This document shows, piece by piece, positions 482-49,631 of a stretch of DNA of 64,000 nucleotides. Numbering within the stretch: position 1 is the first letter of the stretch; the number at the start of each line of letters is the position of its first letter. Both the position numbers and the translations under genes were made by a program. Source of the stretch: Aurantiochytrium sp. KH105 (taxonomy: Eukaryota > Sar > Bigyra > Thraustochytrida > Thraustochytriidae); the NCBI GenBank assembly GCA_003116975.1, contig BGKB01000041.1, forward strand, positions 457,530-521,529, read 5' to 3'. The notes under the pieces are model-generated. The model was given only the letters and a program-made list of their open reading frames with translations, searched no databases and had not been told where the DNA came from.

Positions 482-3400
482 GTACGTTTATGGTCCGATT
501 CTTATAAGATTGGGAGGTGGGGAGGAGCTGGGTGCGCATGACTGCTCTGATTGCGGATGCATGCAGGCGTGAATGAGGAGCAGCAGCAGTGATCTGACTT
601 GCGTCGACTTCATTGACGGACATAACTAACACACCATTGCTCTTCTTTTTTTATTTGATGATGTGGCCATGGAACGCGCAGTCTTCAAGACAACCAGATC
701 GGCGATGAGGGGGCCAAGGCGCTGGCTGAGGGATTGACGGCCAATAGTAGGCTGACATGGTTCAAGTAAGTTCATGCTTCAGCAGAAAGGCTTTCGACCA
801 AATTGAATGTAGATGTGTACATTCATCAGATTAAAATGATCACTATTTGTCTGGACCGATGAGCAGAACTCACACAACGGAATATCGCGCTCCCAAAAAA
901 CACCTCTTCTATTTTTCCGATTCATCTGCTGCACAATGATCCGACATGCGCAGCATTGCCGAAAACAAGATCGGTACCGCAGGCTATGAGCGACTGGCCC
1001 GTCTGCTGGACGAGAACTTCACACTGAAATCATTGTTGTAAGTCTCCTCTCGCTCTCTTGCTTGTTTCGAATAATTTGCTGATAAAAGGTCCTTGTCTCC
1101 TATAATCATCTCTAAAGTGGCATGCCCCTTTCTTTCGAGGACCTCTGGTCCAGAAAGGTTGGCGAAAAGGAGGATGGCGCGGCAATCTGGGAGCCTTTGA
1201 CTCGATCGGAGCGCGTACAAGAGATCCGCGAGTACCTTGTCAACGGATCAGGCTCGAAATGGACGGCAGCTGCACACGAGCTTGCAAGCAAACAGGCTCA
1301 CATCTTCGCAGTTTTTTTGTCGATACTGGTCACTCATGATCCGGATGTAGCACTAACTCTCGATGACTACAAACTTTGGCTTCAAAAGGACGAGGACGAA
1401 GCGGATGATGACGCCGTCCCGATCATTCATGCGCTGCTAGATTGCCGCCCTGGTGGCACGGAATTTGCACTCCCCATGTCCTTCCTGGAAAATTTCATTT
1501 CTGCCAAGCTGCATCTCAAAGATGGGCTGGCTTTGATGGCAAAAGAAGACAATAGTGGCCGCTCCGCTCGGTCGCTCGCACTTGCAAACAAAAGAACGAA
1601 AGCCTGGGCCAAGACCTACGGCACTTACCTCGACCGCTACGAGATTGCCGAGGGGCCACCCGTGCACGAGTCCAAGACCTGCGCCGTGCACCTTGCCACA
1701 GATATACGCACCAACAAACCTGTGGCGATCAAGATCATGCGCGAAAAAAAACAGTACGATCGCGAAGTCGAAGCGCGAAAGCCAAAAGATGGCAGCCAGC
1801 TCCAGGGATGTCTGAAACTACTGGATCGCGAATCGGAAGATGATCGCGAGCTCTTGGATGAGGAGATGTGCCTCGTCATGCCCCGTGGATCTCGATCTCT
1901 TTTCGAGGCGATCAACACCGAACGATTCGCAGGTCGCGATCTGGACAAGATTCGCGAGATCGCGTACCAGATCGCATTAGCCTTACAGAACCTCCACGAC
2001 AGCGGTCGTATCCACGGCGATATCAAGCCGCGGAATGCGGTGCGCACGAGCGAATCGAGTGCAAACACTTTTGTGGACAACAAGAATGGAAGGCAGATGG
2101 TGTCCATGGCCTGGCGTGACTCTCCGACGGGTGAAGGGCTCGATCGCGAAGAGAAGTGGGAGCTGATCGATCTCGATGCCTCTGTGGTGATTGGGGCCGA
2201 GGTCAGCGAGAAAGCAAGTACTGGCTACGTGTCCCCGGAGGTAGCCCGCTGCATCTTCGAAGGCGATGAGAGGCCAAAGGGGCACACGTCTCAGGATGTA
2301 TGGGGCTTTGGTGTGTTACTGTACCAGTTGCTTTCGGGAACCAAGCTCTTCATGGTCGACGAGTCGGATGATAATTTGGTGCACAATCACGATAAGCGCA
2401 AGCTCATGAACTGGCTTGGTCTTGATGAAGACCGCATGAAGCGCATCAAAAAGCGAAAAGACGCTCGACGCGGTAACAGACCGGCTCGTGGAGCGGAGGA
2501 TGGTTTGAGCGGCAGCGAGAACGAGATCGAGGCAGCCCGCGATCTAGCGCGTCTTTGTCTTCGCGGGCAAGCCAAGGAGCGACTCGGTCTTGACAAGATC
2601 CTGGTTCATCCGTTCTTTGACAAGATCCTGGAGTCTGAGCTCGATTCCTCAAGTGAAGCTGCGGAAGACCCGAGTCGACGAGAGTCCAGGAAGAAGCACA
2701 AGTCAGGAAGCAGGCGCGCGTCTGAGCGCAGAACAAGTCGCGCGTCTGGACGCACGTCTGGGCCAAAGCCGAAGTCTACTCGTTTGTCAAGGAAGCGGTC
2801 TCTGAGAGAAAAGATGGCGAGACCGATGAAGGACAGAATTGTGAGCATCCATAGGAGTATCAAGGGCATGGGCCCGCGCTTCGATCCAATCAAGACAACA
2901 CTCAGGCTGTCGCAACGAAACGAGCAAAAGTTCCCCAAATGGTATCACGAACCTGCTCTCAGAACGGACCTGCTCGAGCTGCCCACGTACCACTTTTTCC
3001 TGTCGCATATGCAGCAGCAGGCGGCTGGTATTGTCAAGGATCTGGACGCTGGCCTCGAGCGCAACCAGATGACGGCGTGGGTCGACATGCGCGCACTTGA
3101 CATCACGATGGGTGCGATGCAGCGTGGCGTCATGTCGTCGCAGTGCTTTGTGATGGTGCTGACGACGGACGTTCTGTTCCGGCCCTTTTGCCTCGCCGAG
3201 CTCAAGTTTGCCGTGGACCACTTCGCAAGCATGGGATGGGATCTGCGCAAGCATATATTCTTTCTTGCAGAGGAGGACGAGCGCTTCAACCCCTGGCGAG
3301 CGATCGAAGACGAGCCGTGGACCTGGGACGATACGGAGAAAGATGATGAGACTCTAAGATTGAAAACAAAGTCCGAACTGGACAGAGCGACAATGCTGCA

Positions 3401-4238
3401 AGATCTCGCCAACGAGGCTGATGACGAGGACTTTGCTAAAAGCTGCAAACTGGAAGCACTTAAGGCACGGAAGAAGGCGAAAGAGTTCAAGTGCAGGCTC
3501 GCGCGACGGAAGCTTGAAGAAGATCTCTCGAGCTCACTTTTTGACCTCAGCGCGAGCGCCGCAGACGATGATGACGACACTTCTGTCCACTATTTAGCGG
3601 ACAATTATAAGAAGTACTTTGATGCAGCTCAGCTGGCGCTGGAAGAGTGCTACATCATCCCTTATCGTCGACGTCACTTTGAAGAAGAAGCCATGCTTCG
3701 CGAACTGGCCAGACTCGCAGATTTCAAGACAAGGGCGCCCGAGAAGCCTCGAGCAGTCCCTAAGCTTTACGTTCTTGGAATGGCCGAATCCCTCGTGGTA
3801 ACGACTCTCAAGAAGGCGCTCAAGAGTGTGTCGTCGATGAGTATGGCGGAAGTGGTCGTGATCGTGCTGGAACCTGGGTGCTGTCTTGCCGTGCACGGCG
3901 CGTTGGGCATCGAATCCATCGATGAGGACAATGAGTTACTGAAGAGCAAGAAGTTCCTCGCGGTGGAGAATGGGTGGAACTATGGTGGCAAAGAGAAGGA
4001 GAAGTTTCACGTTGACCTACAAAAGAAGCTGTTTGACCACCTCGAAGCTCTTTCATGGCATGGGTCGCACGAAGCTTATACTTTTCATGATGGGTCTAAC
4101 GGGAGCACGAACTCGGTGCACGAGGAGACTTCTCGACGTAATTATCGGGAGGAACACGAGCTCGAAGCGCTCATTTTTGAGCTGCAGCTGCGTGCCTGTA
4201 GGGTAGTGGAGGACCGCACAATTTCGGCAACTTCGTGA
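124..4238 (+). CDS. LRR - protein kinase - TIR fusion protein (5' partial, spliced)
   Basis: Exons visible: 124-207, 398-481, 682-765, 954-1037 and 1118-4238; earlier exons lie off the window. Each of the first four exons is exactly 84 bp, begins and ends in phase 2, and encodes one 28-residue RNI/NLR-type leucine-rich repeat (NQIGDEGAKALAE core). Donors are GTAAGT or GTACGT and acceptors CAG or AAG; splicing 1037 to 1118 runs in frame into the long last exon. Counting from its first ATG (1122), a protein-kinase domain spans about residues 173-500: VAIK Lys204, catalytic loop HGDIKPRN (D300, N305), DLD at 350-352 in place of DFG, SPE, DVWGFG. A basic Ser/Arg linker follows. A TIR-like domain starts near residue 622 (FFLSH) and holds CLAEL, whose Glu693 aligns with the NADase glutamate of TIR enzymes. 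Known LRR and TIR families suggest a sensor with a TIR output; that role is inference. The kinase may be weakly active because of the missing DFG glycine. Confidence 0.8.
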
Positions 4239-4585
4239 GGTTGCAGTGGACAAGTTGAGCTTTGATCTTCTTCCTCTTCTTCCTCCACAACTCTCTTTTC
4301 GTTCCGATTCCATGACAGCTTTGTTTGCCTTCTAGCTGCGAGTCACTTGACCTATCCACGTCGATTGTCCTGCGGTATGCGCTGGTGCTTGCGCTTTCCA
4401 CTCTTGCGCCTTGGCCTTTCAACTTCGGACCGGCGGCTTCGACGTTCACGGCCTGCCGCCTCTGACACCTCGCTCTTCTCGCGGGACAGACTTCGGGCTA
4501 CTCCAATCTTTCAAGTTCATTCAAGTTCACCGCCTTCCTTCCAAGTCCTTCCCCCTGGCCCTCGAAGCCTGCCTTTGCGTCGCTG

Positions 4586-4863
<278 letters not shown>

Positions 4864-5094
4864 CGTTCATTCCCCCAAGCAGTCCCCTCCTCCGCCTCGG
4901 CACCACTTTCCATCTTCGCAGCTCATCTCCATCTCGCTTCTTTCGCCTCTCCCCTTCCCCTCAACCCCAATCACCTGCATCATAATTGCCTCGCCAGACT
5001 CGCTGCATTTCATCGCCGTCCCTTGCTGCCTTGCCGAAGTGCGCTGCACTGCACTGCATCTCTCGCCCTGTCCTGCATTGCAATGCCTTGCCTT

Positions 5095-5156
5095 GCCTTG
5101 CCTTGCCTTGCCTTGCCTTGCCTTGCCTTGCCTTGCCTTGCCTTGCCTTGCCTTGC
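5095..5156. repeat. (CCTTG)n pentanucleotide array
   Basis: About twelve tandem GCCTT/CCTTG units directly follow a looser stretch of GCACTGCACTGC-like sequence. It lies about 275 bp upstream of the CPT2 start codon. Confidence 0.95.
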
Positions 5157-5430
5157 ATTACTACACGTTGCACCGCTTCGCATTGCAAGGGCCTCCCGGC
5201 GATTACACACAGCCGGGGCGGATTGCAGCCAGGATTGCGGTACCGCACGCAGCGCCGGCGCGCTGCAGCCGCAGACCGACAGACAGCCAGCAGGCAGACC
5301 GAGACAGACCCCGCTAGACGCCCCCGCGCCCCGCCCGGACCACTATCTGCGCGCGCGGCTCCGTGCGTCGCGCTCGCGAGCGAGGCAGGCAGGCCGGCGC
5401 GAGGCGAACGGAACTAGCGCCCGACCGACC

Positions 5431-7464
5431 ATGACGATGATGATGTCGTCCCTGACGGCAACGGCGACGCGGCGCGGCGCGGCGAAGCGGGCGGCGGCGG
5501 CGGCCTCGCGCATGGGCCTGCGGGCGATGGGCACGCTGCCGCCGTACCTGCACGAGACCAAGATCCCGACGTTCCACTTCCAGGACTCGCTGCCCAAGCT
5601 CAAGGTGCCCAAGCTCGAGGAAACCCTGGAAAAGTACGAGTACTTTACCAAGCCCATGGTGTCAGAGGAAGAGTTTGAGCAGACGCGCAAGGCCGTGGCG
5701 GAGTTCAAGTCCGGCGCGGGCCCCTCGCTGCAGGAAGAGCTCATCGCACTCGACAAAAAGGAGTACTCGAGCTTTTACAACCAAATGTGGTTCGACATGT
5801 ACCTCAAGTCTCGGGACCCCCTGCCCCTCAACTTCAATCCGCAGCTCACCTTTGTGGACGAGACTGATCCCAAAAAGATGGACCAGGCGGCGCGCACGGC
5901 CAACCTGCTGGGCAGCTCTTTGCGCTTTTACCGCACTCTGGAAGACGGCAAACTCATCCCGGATATCTTTCACATCGAACCCAAAAGGAGCCAGACGCGC
6001 ACGTACGAAATGGTCTGCAGCATGCTGCCGCGCCAGCTCTCATTCTACGGATCGTACTACTTTAACGCCTATCCGCTGGACATGAGCCAATACAAGGGTC
6101 TCTTTTCCTCGACGCGCATTCCCCACCAGGGCCGCGACGAGATCCGCAAGTTCTCTGCGGCGCAGTCCAAGCACGTTGTTGTGCAGCGCGGCACGGCATT
6201 CTACACCGTCCAGGTCCTCAACGACGACATGTCCATCGTGGACCACGAGACTCTCGAGCGTAGCATTCGTTCCATTCTTCAGGACGACAAGAACGCCAAC
6301 GCGCAGCCTCCTCTGGGCGCTCTTACGACCATGGAGCGCGATGCGTGGGCGGACGCGCGCCTTGCCCTCGAGAAGAATCCAGCCAACAAGGCCACGCTCG
6401 AGGCCATCGACTCGGCCCTCTTTGCAGTCTGCCTCGATGAGGCCAAGCCCGAATCTTATCAAGAGATTGCCGGCGTCATGCTCCACGGCAATGGCCGCAA
6501 CCGATGGTTTGACAAGAGCTTCCAGCTTATTGTGGCGGCCAACGGCAAGGCCTGCGTCAACTTTGAGCATGCCTGGGGTGATGGTGTTGCGGTGCTGCGC
6601 TACTTTAACGAGATCCACACTGACGCCACGGCAGTTCCCGCGCGTGAGCCTGTCGTTTCTGGCATCCCCGAGGTTGTGGCTTCAGGCCCGAGCGGCGCGG
6701 ATGCTGGCGCGGGCCCCGCCGCTGCCGGTGTGGGCGTGCCCAAGCGTTTGCACATCGACTTTGACGGTGATCTCACGAGCCGTGTCGAAAAGGCTGGCAA
6801 GGACTTTGACGCTGTCGTGAGCAAACTCGAGGTGGGCACCTTTGAGACTGAGACCTTTAGCAAGAAGTCGCTCAAGGATCTCAACGTTGGAGGTGACGGC
6901 TTCATGCAAATGGGCTTTCAGCTTGCGCACGAGCGCTGCAATGGCTTTACGCCGGCCACGTACGAGTCCGCGAGCACTGCCGCCTTTAAGCATGGCCGCA
7001 CGGAAACGATTCGATCTGCAACGCCCGAGGCTGCGGCGTTTGCCAAGGCGTTTTGCAACGACTCGGTGAGCGACGAAGAGCGCGCCAAGTTGCTGCGCAC
7101 TGCCATCAAGCGCCACGGCTCCATCACAAAGGACGCCCTCATGGGCAAGGGTATGGACAGACATCTTTTTGCGCTGCGCGTGCTCGCAGAGCAACGCGAC
7201 GCCAACCGGCTGCCGGCCATCTACACGGACAAGGCGTACCAGGTGATCAACAAGATTATTCTGTCCACGAGCACCCTTTCGAGCGATGCCCTTTTTGCCG
7301 GTGGCTTTGGCCCCGTTAACCAGGATTGCTACGCTCTTGCATATGGTATTTCGAACGTGGGCGCGCGAACTGCTGTGGCCACGTACGGCCTTGGATCGCA
7401 GAATTTTGCGGACGAGCTCGAAAAGGCTTACCAGGACATGATCGAGGTCCTGAAGAAGGCCTAA
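5431..7464 (+). CDS. CPT2: Carnitine O-palmitoyltransferase 2 (mitochondrial)
   Basis: Transfers long-chain acyl groups from carnitine back to CoA on the matrix side of the inner mitochondrial membrane, feeding beta-oxidation. The 677-residue protein is close to the usual CPT2 length of about 650. It has a basic, Ser/Thr/Ala-rich, acid-free N terminus (residues 1-35) suited to mitochondrial import. It then reads LPPYLHETKIPTFHFQDSLPKL, the usual start of choline/carnitine acyltransferases. The catalytic signature EHAWGDGVAVLR is present with His380. Near the C terminus STSTLSSDALFAGGFGPV matches the family's conserved STS and GGF region. The ATG at 5431 is preceded by ACC. The open frame continues upstream through the (TCAA)n array, but that part is repeat sequence, so the start at 5431 is preferred. 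Confidence 0.93.
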   Translation: MTMMMSSLTATATRRGAAKRAAAAASRMGLRAMGTLPPYLHETKIPTFHFQDSLPKLKVPKLEETLEKYEYFTKPMVSEEEFEQTRKAVAEFKSGAGPSLQEELIALDKKEYSSFYNQMWFDMYLKSRDPLPLNFNPQLTFVDETDPKKMDQAARTANLLGSSLRFYRTLEDGKLIPDIFHIEPKRSQTRTYEMVCSMLPRQLSFYGSYYFNAYPLDMSQYKGLFSSTRIPHQGRDEIRKFSAAQSKHVVVQRGTAFYTVQVLNDDMSIVDHETLERSIRSILQDDKNANAQPPLGALTTMERDAWADARLALEKNPANKATLEAIDSALFAVCLDEAKPESYQEIAGVMLHGNGRNRWFDKSFQLIVAANGKACVNFEHAWGDGVAVLRYFNEIHTDATAVPAREPVVSGIPEVVASGPSGADAGAGPAAAGVGVPKRLHIDFDGDLTSRVEKAGKDFDAVVSKLEVGTFETETFSKKSLKDLNVGGDGFMQMGFQLAHERCNGFTPATYESASTAAFKHGRTETIRSATPEAAAFAKAFCNDSVSDEERAKLLRTAIKRHGSITKDALMGKGMDRHLFALRVLAEQRDANRLPAIYTDKAYQVINKIILSTSTLSSDALFAGGFGPVNQDCYALAYGISNVGARTAVATYGLGSQNFADELEKAYQDMIEVLKKA

Positions 7465-45857: not shown

Positions 45858-48800
45858 TCAAAAGCCTTGGGCCGCGTAGTCGAAAGCGGTGCGCGAGCTG
45901 CAAAATATGCAAGAGGCCTCAAAGAGGTCGACGCTAGCACTGTCTTGGTCGTCAACGCCTCTGACACCACAATCTGGAAAAGAGTTTCCACACGGCGAAC
46001 CCAAGTAGGCGCCGTTGCGCAATTTGAGAACCTGTGTCGTCGTGTTTGCGCCATAGAGCGTGAAATCAGGCTGTTCACTTTGAGCTGCAATGCCCACCTC
46101 GACGGCATCAAAAGTATACTCGTTGATGGCTTGCACAAGAGCATTTTCAATCGAGAGCTGGGGGTTCCGCAGGAAAAGCTCTGCCGTGCGCAAAAGGATG
46201 GGAGAGCCCTTGGGAAAGAGCAAGAGATCTGCTCCGTCCTGCCAGGCGCTAGGAAAGGAGCGCGGTATTGTCTGCATGACGAGTCCATTGTGGTTGCGCA
46301 GAAAAACACCTCCATGTATGAAGAGAACGAGCACCGGCAAAATATCGAGATCATCAGGAAACTTTCGCATGTGCGAAACAAAGCGCTTTACCAAGTTGTG
46401 ATCCAGGTGAAGCTGCCTTAGTTGTTGCACCATGTCAAAACTCTCCACTGCAACGTCGTAGCCGACCAGAGCCAGTTGCACCAGTTCTGTTTGCCGCATA
46501 CCCACGTTGTCATTGCAGTGCACGACAAGTCTTGCATTCGGGTGGTGACGAAAGACACTCTCGGCAAGACGCATTGTACTATTGGTCATGGCATTGGCGG
46601 ATGGAAGCATAATGTGAAACACATCTTGCGGGGCCTCGACACCGTAGGGCTGGCCGTGACCGAGCCGGCGAAGGGGCACGATTCCGAAAAGAAAGGCAGT
46701 GTCCGAAAAAAAAGACGAACGCTTGGAGATATAGTTCCAAAACGTTGCGCGGTGTCGATCGACAATATGATTGCCTGGGTTGGGGGGCGGATGCGTCCAG
46801 TTGAAAAAGCGGGGAAGAGGTTGATCACGGCCAAGAACGTGAAAGAAGGAAATGATGTCGTCCATGCCAGCGCCCATGGCACCTTGCACATCCGTTACAG
46901 TGGCATCCGCTCCGCGAGGAGGCTTGAGAAATATCACTGGCACACCTTGAGCCATGGCCGCGAGACCAATGTGTGCGCGCGACGTGATGACCAGCTTGGC
47001 CTCCTCGGCAAACGAGCGCAGCAGGTGGAAAGCGTAGTGGTGGACGCCCTCTTCATCTCGAAGAACATCTAGCGCCGGTAAAACGGACCGGCGCTCTACC
47101 ACATTGAGAACGCCATCAGGGATGAGATCGGTGCGTGCAACATCAACGAGAAAGGCCTTGTTTCCACGAGGCTGGCGTACGTCCGTCGCAACGTCGACAA
47201 TGGTCGAGAAGCAGCCCGAAAAGAACGCCTCGACCCCATTGGCCACGAGAAAGTCGAGCGTGGCATGGTCTCTTGCACCCACCGGCCCATGTTTTTTGTT
47301 GTAGTCCGTAAAGTACGAGATGTCCTTGCCGAGGACCTGTTTTCGGAATTTGGGGCTTGTGTGGACCGACAACATTACGGGGTCGAGCTTCGGGCCAGGT
47401 GGCCACTGCACGTTGGGGCCAAGCCAGGTGTTCATGAACAAGTGCCCATGTGCGTCAGGGAGACCCTGATCACGATCCGTAAAGTGAGAGAGGTACGGCA
47501 TAAAGGAGAGACCGGCAAAGGCTTGCAGCTCATCGCCGAGGTCCACGCCAACGAGCTTCTTCGAGTGCGACACATAGCTGAACGAAGAGTACTCTTCAAA
47601 TTGGTCTTGCAGCTCTCGAAGGTTGGGCAACATAAAAGGCGGCATCATGCTCAGCGTTGCTGGCTCATAGTCAATAGAAGGCCAGTTGCGGTCGCTATGG
47701 CAATGCCAGCTGACTTGGCCGAGGATTCGCACACAAATGCCAGGCTTCTTTAGCAGCAACGACAACATTGCCACAGACTGCACATGATCGGCAAATTGGC
47801 GTTTTAGACGTACCTTTTCCCACATGTGATGGCGCACAAAGGTCTCGTACGGCGTGCCTCGCACAAGAGACTTGAGATTGAGACGGCGCGCACCAGCAAA
47901 GCGGTTCATGCAACCCGAGAAGGCGCAATATACCACTTCGGTGGGGCAACGCCGATTCACATTTGGCCCTGGACTGAACGGATACGCCCAGATACTGTAC
48001 AGCTGCTCCTCGTAGACGTCGCAGATCGCTCGAGGCTCTTCGATGCGACCGTCCTCGCTAATGCCAGGGGTGAACTGACGCTGCGAGCGTTCTTGGAGCC
48101 AGGTTTCTGGGCCATAGTGCGCGTGAATGTCGTCTCCGCCCATCACGAGAGCGGCCGTGATGAGGACTGCTAGTGAGCCAAGCGCAGCAGTACGTCGTAC
48201 GGAGCTCTGGTGACGGTTCATGTCAACGCCCGCCCAGCCAACGCCCACGAGACCAATGCCTAGCCACTGCGCCACAGTAATGTGCTCAAAGTGAACGCAT
48301 GCAGCAAGCACGGCAATAAAGATACATTGAAGCAACTTGAGTCCTTCGTGCGCCCCCTGCGAATAGAGTTGCGTGATCAAAAGGTTCACCGCGCTCGCAC
48401 CAAAGTAGTAGAGGCCGGTCTCGACGCTGACACGTCCCGTAAAGACCGAAAGGTTGGTTGCGTACATGATGACAAGGATAAAGAGCGCTAGCACAAATCC
48501 CACCGTCGAAGTGATGCCAAACGCCAGAAACGGCGCATCCGCGTGCACCTTGTGCATCATGCGCCGCACGATGTGCGATCGCCACTGAAGCAGTGCGCTC
48601 GATAGAAAAATGAGAATGACACCCGAGACGACGCTAGGCCCTGAAACTGAAGCTGCCATGGCGCCAGCGCCCAGGACAATACCAAACAGGGTCTGCGTCG
48701 TTGACAAGGGCAGGTGGGTTTGAGGAACCCAGCGAAGTGTCGCCATCGCCACGAGAATCGCGGGTTCCACCAACTTGGCGAGCTGGAGTGTCGAAACGTC

Positions 48801-49631
48801 GAGAACTGCGAGACCGCTCAGGAGAAATGCGTGACTGAGGAGATGCGCAAAACCCAGAACAATCCAAACGATGTGGGGCGTGCTGTCCAGCAACGCGGTC
48901 AGGGCTTCGAGTTTGTGAGGATGGCCTGCCACGTGCATGAGCACGCCATGGGAAAACATTAGAGCACAGCTCACAAAGAGGTGAACAGCCGTTTGCGCGA
49001 GAACGTCACCGGCGCCAAGGGCACCCTTTATTGATTCGTGGAGCTCCATGAAGAATATTGCACTCAAGCCGAACCAGATGCAGATTAACACAAAGGCTGC
49101 GGGTTGGCTTAACAGGACACCAAGACATTCGCATGGCCCGCTTTCTGAGAGCTCAGAGGATCCTTGACCATCTGCTCCGCAGTGTCCCCCGACGCCCCCG
49201 GAGTTCGCATCCCCGGCCCCCAAAGCGCCGGCGTTTGCCTCATCGATGTCCCCGTCCCATCGATCGTCTAAATACACGGACGACTTGCGTTTGAAGCGTG
49301 CGCGGTCTTCCTCGCCGTTACCATTCGTACCGCGCAGCGTTTCCTGGTGATGATAATAGTGAAGGTTTCCGATCGAGGCAGGACCCGGTCTTTGCATGCC
49401 AACGAGGTGGACGCCATCGCTGGTCATGCCAACATCGACGTCATTCAACCTGATGCCCTGGTACACAGCGGAGCCGACGGCCGCGCCCGCATGCAGCGTC
49501 GTGGCCGCCGCCTCGTGAAGATCGCACAGCTCTTGCGGCACGCTGCCGCGGCGCCGCGGGCCGTCTCCCTCCTCGTGGCCCGCGGCGACCGCGCCGTCGC
49601 TTGTGCTCGCGTCCGGGCGCCGCTGCGGCAT
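45858..49631 (-). CDS. Fusion: TPT-type nucleotide-sugar transporter + polysaccharide pyruvyl transferase + glycosyltransferase-like domain
   Basis: 1257 residues in one uninterrupted frame from the ATG at 49631. Residues 1-165 are a Gly/Asp-rich, probably cytosolic region. Residues about 172-495 contain about ten hydrophobic helices in the EamA/TPT (triose-phosphate or nucleotide-sugar transporter) pattern; the Lys-leucine/proline region STLQLAKLVEPAILV resembles the substrate helix of that superfamily. Residues about 535-905 form a polysaccharide pyruvyl transferase domain, with VGVDLGDELQAFAG, the core GPVGARDHATLDFLVANGV leading to FFSGC (782-807), and VITSRAHIGLAAMAQGVPVIF (880-901). Residues about 1001-1170 resemble the sugar-binding DXD glycosyltransferases (Gly_transf_sug/A4GALT type): DILPVLVLFIHGGVFL at 1096-1111, but the following DxD reads RNHN. 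The likely site is the Golgi, where pyruvylated surface or wall polysaccharide would be made with locally imported donor; that is inference. Confidence 0.8.
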   Translation of the reverse strand: MPQRRPDASTSDGAVAAGHEEGDGPRRRGSVPQELCDLHEAAATTLHAGAAVGSAVYQGIRLNDVDVGMTSDGVHLVGMQRPGPASIGNLHYYHHQETLRGTNGNGEEDRARFKRKSSVYLDDRWDGDIDEANAGALGAGDANSGGVGGHCGADGQGSSELSESGPCECLGVLLSQPAAFVLICIWFGLSAIFFMELHESIKGALGAGDVLAQTAVHLFVSCALMFSHGVLMHVAGHPHKLEALTALLDSTPHIVWIVLGFAHLLSHAFLLSGLAVLDVSTLQLAKLVEPAILVAMATLRWVPQTHLPLSTTQTLFGIVLGAGAMAASVSGPSVVSGVILIFLSSALLQWRSHIVRRMMHKVHADAPFLAFGITSTVGFVLALFILVIMYATNLSVFTGRVSVETGLYYFGASAVNLLITQLYSQGAHEGLKLLQCIFIAVLAACVHFEHITVAQWLGIGLVGVGWAGVDMNRHQSSVRRTAALGSLAVLITAALVMGGDDIHAHYGPETWLQERSQRQFTPGISEDGRIEEPRAICDVYEEQLYSIWAYPFSPGPNVNRRCPTEVVYCAFSGCMNRFAGARRLNLKSLVRGTPYETFVRHHMWEKVRLKRQFADHVQSVAMLSLLLKKPGICVRILGQVSWHCHSDRNWPSIDYEPATLSMMPPFMLPNLRELQDQFEEYSSFSYVSHSKKLVGVDLGDELQAFAGLSFMPYLSHFTDRDQGLPDAHGHLFMNTWLGPNVQWPPGPKLDPVMLSVHTSPKFRKQVLGKDISYFTDYNKKHGPVGARDHATLDFLVANGVEAFFSGCFSTIVDVATDVRQPRGNKAFLVDVARTDLIPDGVLNVVERRSVLPALDVLRDEEGVHHYAFHLLRSFAEEAKLVITSRAHIGLAAMAQGVPVIFLKPPRGADATVTDVQGAMGAGMDDIISFFHVLGRDQPLPRFFNWTHPPPNPGNHIVDRHRATFWNYISKRSSFFSDTAFLFGIVPLRRLGHGQPYGVEAPQDVFHIMLPSANAMTNSTMRLAESVFRHHPNARLVVHCNDNVGMRQTELVQLALVGYDVAVESFDMVQQLRQLHLDHNLVKRFVSHMRKFPDDLDILPVLVLFIHGGVFLRNHNGLVMQTIPRSFPSAWQDGADLLLFPKGSPILLRTAELFLRNPQLSIENALVQAINEYTFDAVEVGIAAQSEQPDFTLYGANTTTQVLKLRNGAYLGSPCGNSFPDCGVRGVDDQDSASVDLFEASCIFCSSRTAFDYAAQGF

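Follow-up and report, generated by a model that had tools for sequence, protein, structure and literature searches.

Can one polypeptide import a donor substrate across an endomembrane and also use it for glycan modification? The question is raised by a locus in a 64,000-nucleotide stretch of Aurantiochytrium sp. KH105 DNA (contig BGKB01000041.1, positions 457,530 to 521,529; hereafter the window). A preliminary description had read one long frame there as a TPT-like transporter, a pyruvyltransferase and a glycosyltransferase-like block, and had proposed that the protein hands imported phosphoenolpyruvate (PEP) or nucleotide sugar directly to its own lumenal transferase in the Golgi. We find that this frame is predicted to carry a TPT-like transporter, an eleventh helix, a pyruvyltransferase-like (PvT-like) domain and a GT32-like block (Table 1), and that the same genome contains a second family of TPT-PvT fusions.

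The frame runs from ATG to stop for 1257 codons without a break on contig C41 of the 76 Mb, 367-contig assembly that was searched. It lies in an open frame of 1262 residues, with an in-frame TGA six codons upstream of the ATG. Contig C16 bears a colinear copy of the region (95.2% identity across 6.5 kb), probably the other haplotype, whose frame is likewise 1257 codons long and has 97.7% nucleotide identity to the window open reading frame (ORF) with no indels. Between the two ORFs 66 codon differences are silent and 17 change the amino acid, giving a dN/dS of 0.08 overall. By region the ratio is 0.31 for residues 1–165, where the copies differ most, 0.02 for 166–475 (25 silent and 2 changing codons in the TPT part), 0.17 for 476–545, 0 for 546–960 (16 silent and 0 changing in the PvT part) and 0.12 for 961–1257. 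On the strength of the same-length second copy and the low dN/dS, the frame would encode a selected protein, with the strongest constraint on the TPT and PvT parts. The continuous frame of the preliminary description is thereby borne out, and a missed stop or frameshift is largely refuted by a copy that has a matching frame, no length change and purifying selection.

Only the PvT part is seen directly by Pfam, the transporter and glycosyltransferase assignments being upheld through relatives in the same genome. PF04230 matches residues 776–902 with an E-value of 1.8e-4 and 22.0 bits by hmmscan, below the 25.3 cut-off, and reaches 26.8 bits for the window in a six-frame search with neighbours. 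The PvT part aligns to that of the paralogue P0002 with a Smith-Waterman z of 75.6 (z being taken against 150 shuffles inside 15-residue blocks). The PEP-site residues are R217, R337 and H339 in Pvg1p and R148, R306 and H308 in CsaB, according to the available text of PMC4872226 and PMC10435577. For CsaB His308, replacement by Ala or Arg is described as killing activity and replacement by Lys or Ser as sparing it. R787, R885 and H887 of the window protein, whose equivalence to the Pvg1p residues was set by motif without direct alignment, are invariant across a four-row alignment representing three genes. The pyruvyltransferase-like assignment is supported, the PEP-site motif residues being retained and the PF04230 score falling below the cut-off in one search and above it in the other.

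The transporter region was compared with TPTs of the same genome. By hhalign against an 11-member genome TPT profile that included P0003 and P0007, the two fusion proteins described below, residues 258–478 matched with probability 83.7 and a score of 47.3, against 18.5 for the reversed region, 12.2 for the shuffled region and 10.5 for an MFS profile. In pairwise comparison the TPT part gave z-values of 10.1 to P0003, 7.8 to P0007 and 2.5 to L026, and no more than 1.1 for the remaining ten TPT/UAA proteins as for six MFS proteins. The TPT assignment follows from the combined profile and the two fusion proteins, and the window carrier is predicted to be a very divergent TPT whose closest relatives found are P0003 and P0007. 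The TPT-like region is therefore upheld, though without a direct Pfam match. Neither does the window protein match NCBIfam TIGR00817 (cut-off 317.9 bits), with which P0003 scores 54.6 and P0007 51.8 bits.

The Galdieria translocator GsGPT (5y78/5y79) offers a structural reference, its residues being numbered onto the chain with a single offset, 89, which suits Lys204, Lys362 and Arg363 alike. These three form its phosphate site according to the available text of PMC11661312. The window protein resembles GsGPT in its ten-helix order and in K286, the Lys204 equivalent, and differs in lacking Lys362/Arg363, where it has Q435 and C436 (so that one of three phosphate-site residues is kept), in its missing TIGR00817 match and in its appended enzyme domains. 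At His185, Thr188 and Tyr339, which we take to belong to the same site, it has H267, L270 and A412.

The pairing of a TPT with a PvT domain recurs in a second family. P0003 (contig C132, 804 aa) matches PF03151 at residues 70–369 (E 1.5e-20, 74.2 bits; cut-off 30) and PF04230 at 491–757 with 24.2 bits, or 26.6 bits, over the cut-off, in the six-frame search; it has a further match to UAA and one to Nuc_sug_transp that stays under the cut-off. P0007 (contig C8, 820 aa) matches PF03151 (E 3.1e-19, 69.9 bits; cut-off 30) and, weakly, PF04230 (12.6 bits, E 0.13). When a joint profile of the two was compared with the PDB, the top two of six matches were 5y78 to the TPT half (E 0.0023) and Pvg1p 5ax7 to the other half (E 0.019), and P0007 alone matches the GsGPT structure at E 3.7e-4. 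The frames are continuous in both intact genes, and among 24 TPT matches frames longer than 600 aa occur solely at the two TPT-PvT places. The PvT domains of P0003 and P0007 are not recognisably like that of the window protein (z of 3.1 and −0.5). Because one TPT branch stands ahead of two such different PvT-like domains, this family is the strongest new evidence for a functional pairing, and it supports the combination originally proposed. Given the unlike PvT domains, separate fusions and a single fusion followed by enzyme exchange are both possible. P0003 and P0007 retain T188, K204, Y339 and K362 of GsGPT, with Asn at H185 and Gly at R363; placed on Pvg1p with a fitted offset of 53, both show Arg at the R217 position and Glu at that of H339, and the R337 position is His in P0003. 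To judge from these residues, each fusion type appears to have one well-preserved half and one altered half.

Contig C132 also holds a TPT-PvT copy broken by stops (L025 1547–3769; two TGA, one TAG and one TAA in the match), which aligns at 90.5% with the intact C8 copy and may be its broken allele. Between the C132 TPT-PvT copies lies a 446-aa ORF (L025 6132–7472, plus strand) that has a hydrophobic stretch in its N-terminal part and on inspection resembles a type II membrane protein; no Pfam family was found for it at E ≤ 0.001.

Six places emerged from a genome search with the whole window protein: besides the window and its C16 copy, these were on contigs C308, C36 and C17 and, as a terminal piece, on C2. 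P0002 (C308, 873 aa as listed) has an anchor near its N-terminus, then PvT, then GT32, and the copy pair P0005/P0006 (C36 and C17; 840 and 839 aa as listed) has an N-terminal anchor followed by the same two domains, while P0008, the C2 piece cut by the contig end, comprises an anchor and the beginning of the PvT part. P0002 passes PF04230 (43.4 bits) and PF04488 (27.0 bits; cut-off 23); P0005 passes PF04488 (44.3 bits; cut-off 23) and scores 22.8 bits with PF04230. The paralogues are thus like GT32 (PF04488; Och1-type mannosyltransferase) and keep its DXD motif, as DFD in P0002 and DMD in P0005. Unlike GT32, the window block has no Pfam match of its own and, in both the window and the C16 copy, has NHN in place of DXD; it aligns to the GT parts of the paralogues with z of 26.7 and 21.7. 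Of the glycosyltransferase-like reading, then, the homology to PF04488-passing paralogues stands, but activity is not supported.

Wider searches added little. P0002 gave no match in the PDB by phmmer at E ≤ 1, and the best PDB match of a PvT-GT32 family profile was weak (initiation-specific alpha-1,6-mannosyltransferase, E 0.14). No relatives were confirmed among the viral contigs (43 matches to pattern A3 and 127 to A2) or the prokaryote genome contigs (99 to A3), and PHROGs returned no family for any of three proteins. The window protein had a single chance-level match in NCBIfam, and its nine weak phmmer matches in the PDB, which pointed to a tyrosine phosphatase (best E 0.097), were read as chance.

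Ten segments in TPT order and an eleventh were placed by hand on hydropathy, segment 8 being only mildly hydrophobic (0.81). Of the K/R residues in the inter-helix loops, 9 fall on the side presumed to be cytosolic and 2 on the lumenal side. The eleventh segment is preceded by a positively charged stretch and corresponds, by position and hydrophobicity, to the anchors of P0002 and P0005/P0006; the P0008 anchor is split at that place, and the segment is weak in P0003/P0007 (KD 0.94–1.24). With this helix the PvT domain would face the lumen, which ten helices alone would not allow. A lumenal enzyme, as first suggested, is therefore possible, while the exact topology is one that we infer. The simplest history would be the joining of a TPT ahead of a type II PvT-GT32 enzyme whose anchor stays as helix 11, and the protein families concerned would suggest a Golgi site.

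Taking everything together, the best explanation appears to be a single endomembrane carrier-PvT protein that supplies PEP to its own lumenal PvT domain, a reading that we hold tentatively, at somewhat less than an even chance. The ten TPT-type helices would form a solute carrier in an endomembrane, and helix 11, which probably once served a PvT-GT32 enzyme as its type II anchor, would carry the chain across it to leave the PvT domain in the lumen. The substrate moved by the carrier would be small and most likely PEP, the donor for PvT; delivered to the lumen next to the PvT domain of the same protein, it would be used there to ketal-pyruvylate a glycan. The GT32-like block, having lost its DXD, would probably hold the acceptor glycan rather than transfer sugar. 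The more specific proposal is that one polypeptide imports PEP into the Golgi lumen for its own pyruvyltransferase, as a covalent import-and-transfer machine, and that carriers of one TPT branch became fused, within a single lineage, to two highly dissimilar PvT-type enzymes, in both cases with an extra lumen-turning helix; this we regard as doubtful. The import-and-transfer mechanism as a whole is reasonable but unproven.

Several results weigh against it. Pfam TPT (PF03151) has no match to the window protein at E ≤ 1, nor to the C16 copy at E ≤ 10. Dropping P0003/P0007 from the TPT profile lowers the score to 36.6 and the probability to 34.5; with this nine-member profile three MFS proteins score 15–24, and nine ordinary TPTs, left out one by one, 80–414. 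Taken singly by hhalign, all ten non-fusion TPT/UAA sets score 12.6–18.7 against the window protein, where reversed and shuffled controls reach 20.2. The Lys362/Arg363 positions are basic at one site at least in nine of nine aligned ordinary TPTs, and at neither in the window protein. On the enzyme side, D700 (in a GDE motif) is a guess for Pvg1p D106 and no residue was assigned to K361, and Pvg1p is retrieved from the PDB neither by a profile of the whole family nor by one of its PvT part. Finally, P0003 and P0007, which have the better-kept transporter site, bear Glu for the PvT histidine. The channelling of PEP, as originally envisaged, is supported only in part: R787, R885 and H887 are retained, but one of three phosphate-binding TPT residues is kept and the GT32-like block lacks its DXD.

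The carrier may instead move a nucleotide sugar or another sugar phosphate, with PEP arriving through another carrier or the PF04230 domain using another donor, which we think rather unlikely. TPT-fold carriers include nucleotide-sugar carriers, and the Q435/C436 pair at the Lys362/Arg363 positions, the UAA and Nuc_sug_transp matches of P0003 and the DXD-bearing GT32 domains of the paralogues, which would require a sugar donor, all fit such a cargo. Set against this, the window block has no DXD and P0003 and P0007 have no Pfam match to GT32, so that in neither fusion is there an evident domain that would call for a nucleotide sugar. It is unlikely, too, that at least one part is inactive, with the TPT helices in the role of a multi-pass anchor, a dimeriser or a sensor, and the whole protein acting as a scaffold or as a PvT without its own import. 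The mostly changed TPT site, the lost DXD and the strong divergence of the TPT would be expected of such a protein; the dN/dS of 0.02 on the TPT part and 0 on the PvT part and the retained PvT motifs would not. A continuous frame that yields separate products, for instance a type II PvT-GT protein begun at M471, is very unlikely: that methionine does lie directly before the positive stretch and helix 11, as in the single-anchor paralogues, but helix 10 ends at about residue 469 and leaves no space for a stop or spacer, the frame is retained in both copies, and the second TPT-PvT family is continuous in both intact genes. An assembly or frame artefact, to which the restriction of direct Pfam support to residues 776–902 might point, is scarcely credible and largely refuted by the second copy, the two lying on different contigs with matching frames under purifying selection.

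Were PEP the cargo, the pathway itself would be familiar. Fission yeast takes PEP into the Golgi through Pet1p and Pet2p, and Pvg1p uses it there, according to the available text of PMC6801904 and PMC4872226, so the logic of import followed by pyruvylation by separate proteins is already known. The Aurantiochytrium fusions would, on the proposed reading, resemble this system in combining Golgi PEP import with a pyruvyltransferase, and the P0003/P0007 profile matches Pvg1p itself. They differ in that the yeast proteins are separate and have no GT32-like part, and in that the profile of the window PvT family misses Pvg1p. In mammals, nucleotide-sugar carriers and glycosyltransferases associate in the Golgi, and direct hand-over has been proposed but is unproven (available text of PMC6453868). 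Those complexes likewise keep carrier and enzyme together; unlike the fusions, they are described as separate associating proteins with other donors and enzymes. No carrier-pyruvyltransferase fusion was found among the titles and abstract openings that searches of one open-access literature collection brought up, and in its available text the review PMC6801904 uses the words 'fusion' and 'bifunctional' nowhere. The claim that such a channelled machine was undescribed survives for the fusion, within the open-access literature searched, but not for the pathway logic; the covalent arrangement appears new for a known pathway.

Table 1. Features of the fusion ORF, in window positions.
Feature	Residues	Positions	Strand	Basis
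Whole ORF, 1257 codons + stop	1–1257	45858..49631	minus	ORF listing, second copy
N-terminal tail, presumed cytosolic	1–177	49101..49631	minus	hydropathy
Ten-helix TPT-like transporter	178–469	48225..49100	minus	profile and pairwise comparison, hydropathy; no direct Pfam match
K286, aligned to GsGPT Lys204	286	48774..48776	minus	alignment
Q435-C436, aligned to GsGPT Lys362-Arg363; basic pair lost	435–436	48324..48329	minus	alignment
M471, internal ATG just ahead of helix 11; possible start of a separate type II protein	471	48219..48221	minus	
Eleventh helix	481–499	48135..48191	minus	lined up with anchors of P0002, P0005/P0006
PvT-like domain (Pfam core 776–902)	546–960	46752..47996	minus	PF04230 and paralogue alignment
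GARD; R787 set by motif opposite Pvg1p R217	785–788	47268..47279	minus	invariant in alignment
SRAH; R885/H887 set by motif opposite Pvg1p R337/H339	884–887	46971..46982	minus	R and H invariant
GT32-like block + stop	961–1257	45858..46751	minus	z to GT parts of paralogues
NHN; DFD or DMD in paralogues	1113–1115	46287..46295	minus	alignment

Nothing in the neighbours tested (a ThiF/DUF2470 protein, a SNAP protein, a pyridine-nucleotide oxidoreductase and a kinase-TIR protein) points to a glycan gene cluster, and a promoter and terminator scan, which is not meaningful for a eukaryote, found nothing above shuffled controls. Elsewhere in the window, a 1038-aa ORF at 1122–4238 (plus strand) matches protein kinase (76 bits) and TIR_2 (31.1 bits), each above its cut-off. 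A long ORF at 4411–7464 (plus strand) opens with a long Ser-Ile-Asn-Gln tandem run and is possibly repeat read-through ahead of a gene. Of two long frames with UAA/EamA matches that were inspected by eye, one looks like a lone carrier and the other (L059 2–3715, minus strand) appears to join an EamA-like part to a His-rich cation-efflux-like part.

If the proposed function is true, these proteins would add to eukaryotic ketal-pyruvylation, for which a 2019 review (PMC6801904, available text) gives Pvg1p as the eukaryotic one among three characterised enzymes. A covalent carrier-enzyme pair would make the direct hand-over of a donor to a lumenal transferase testable, and the two fusion architectures within one genome would provide a natural comparison.

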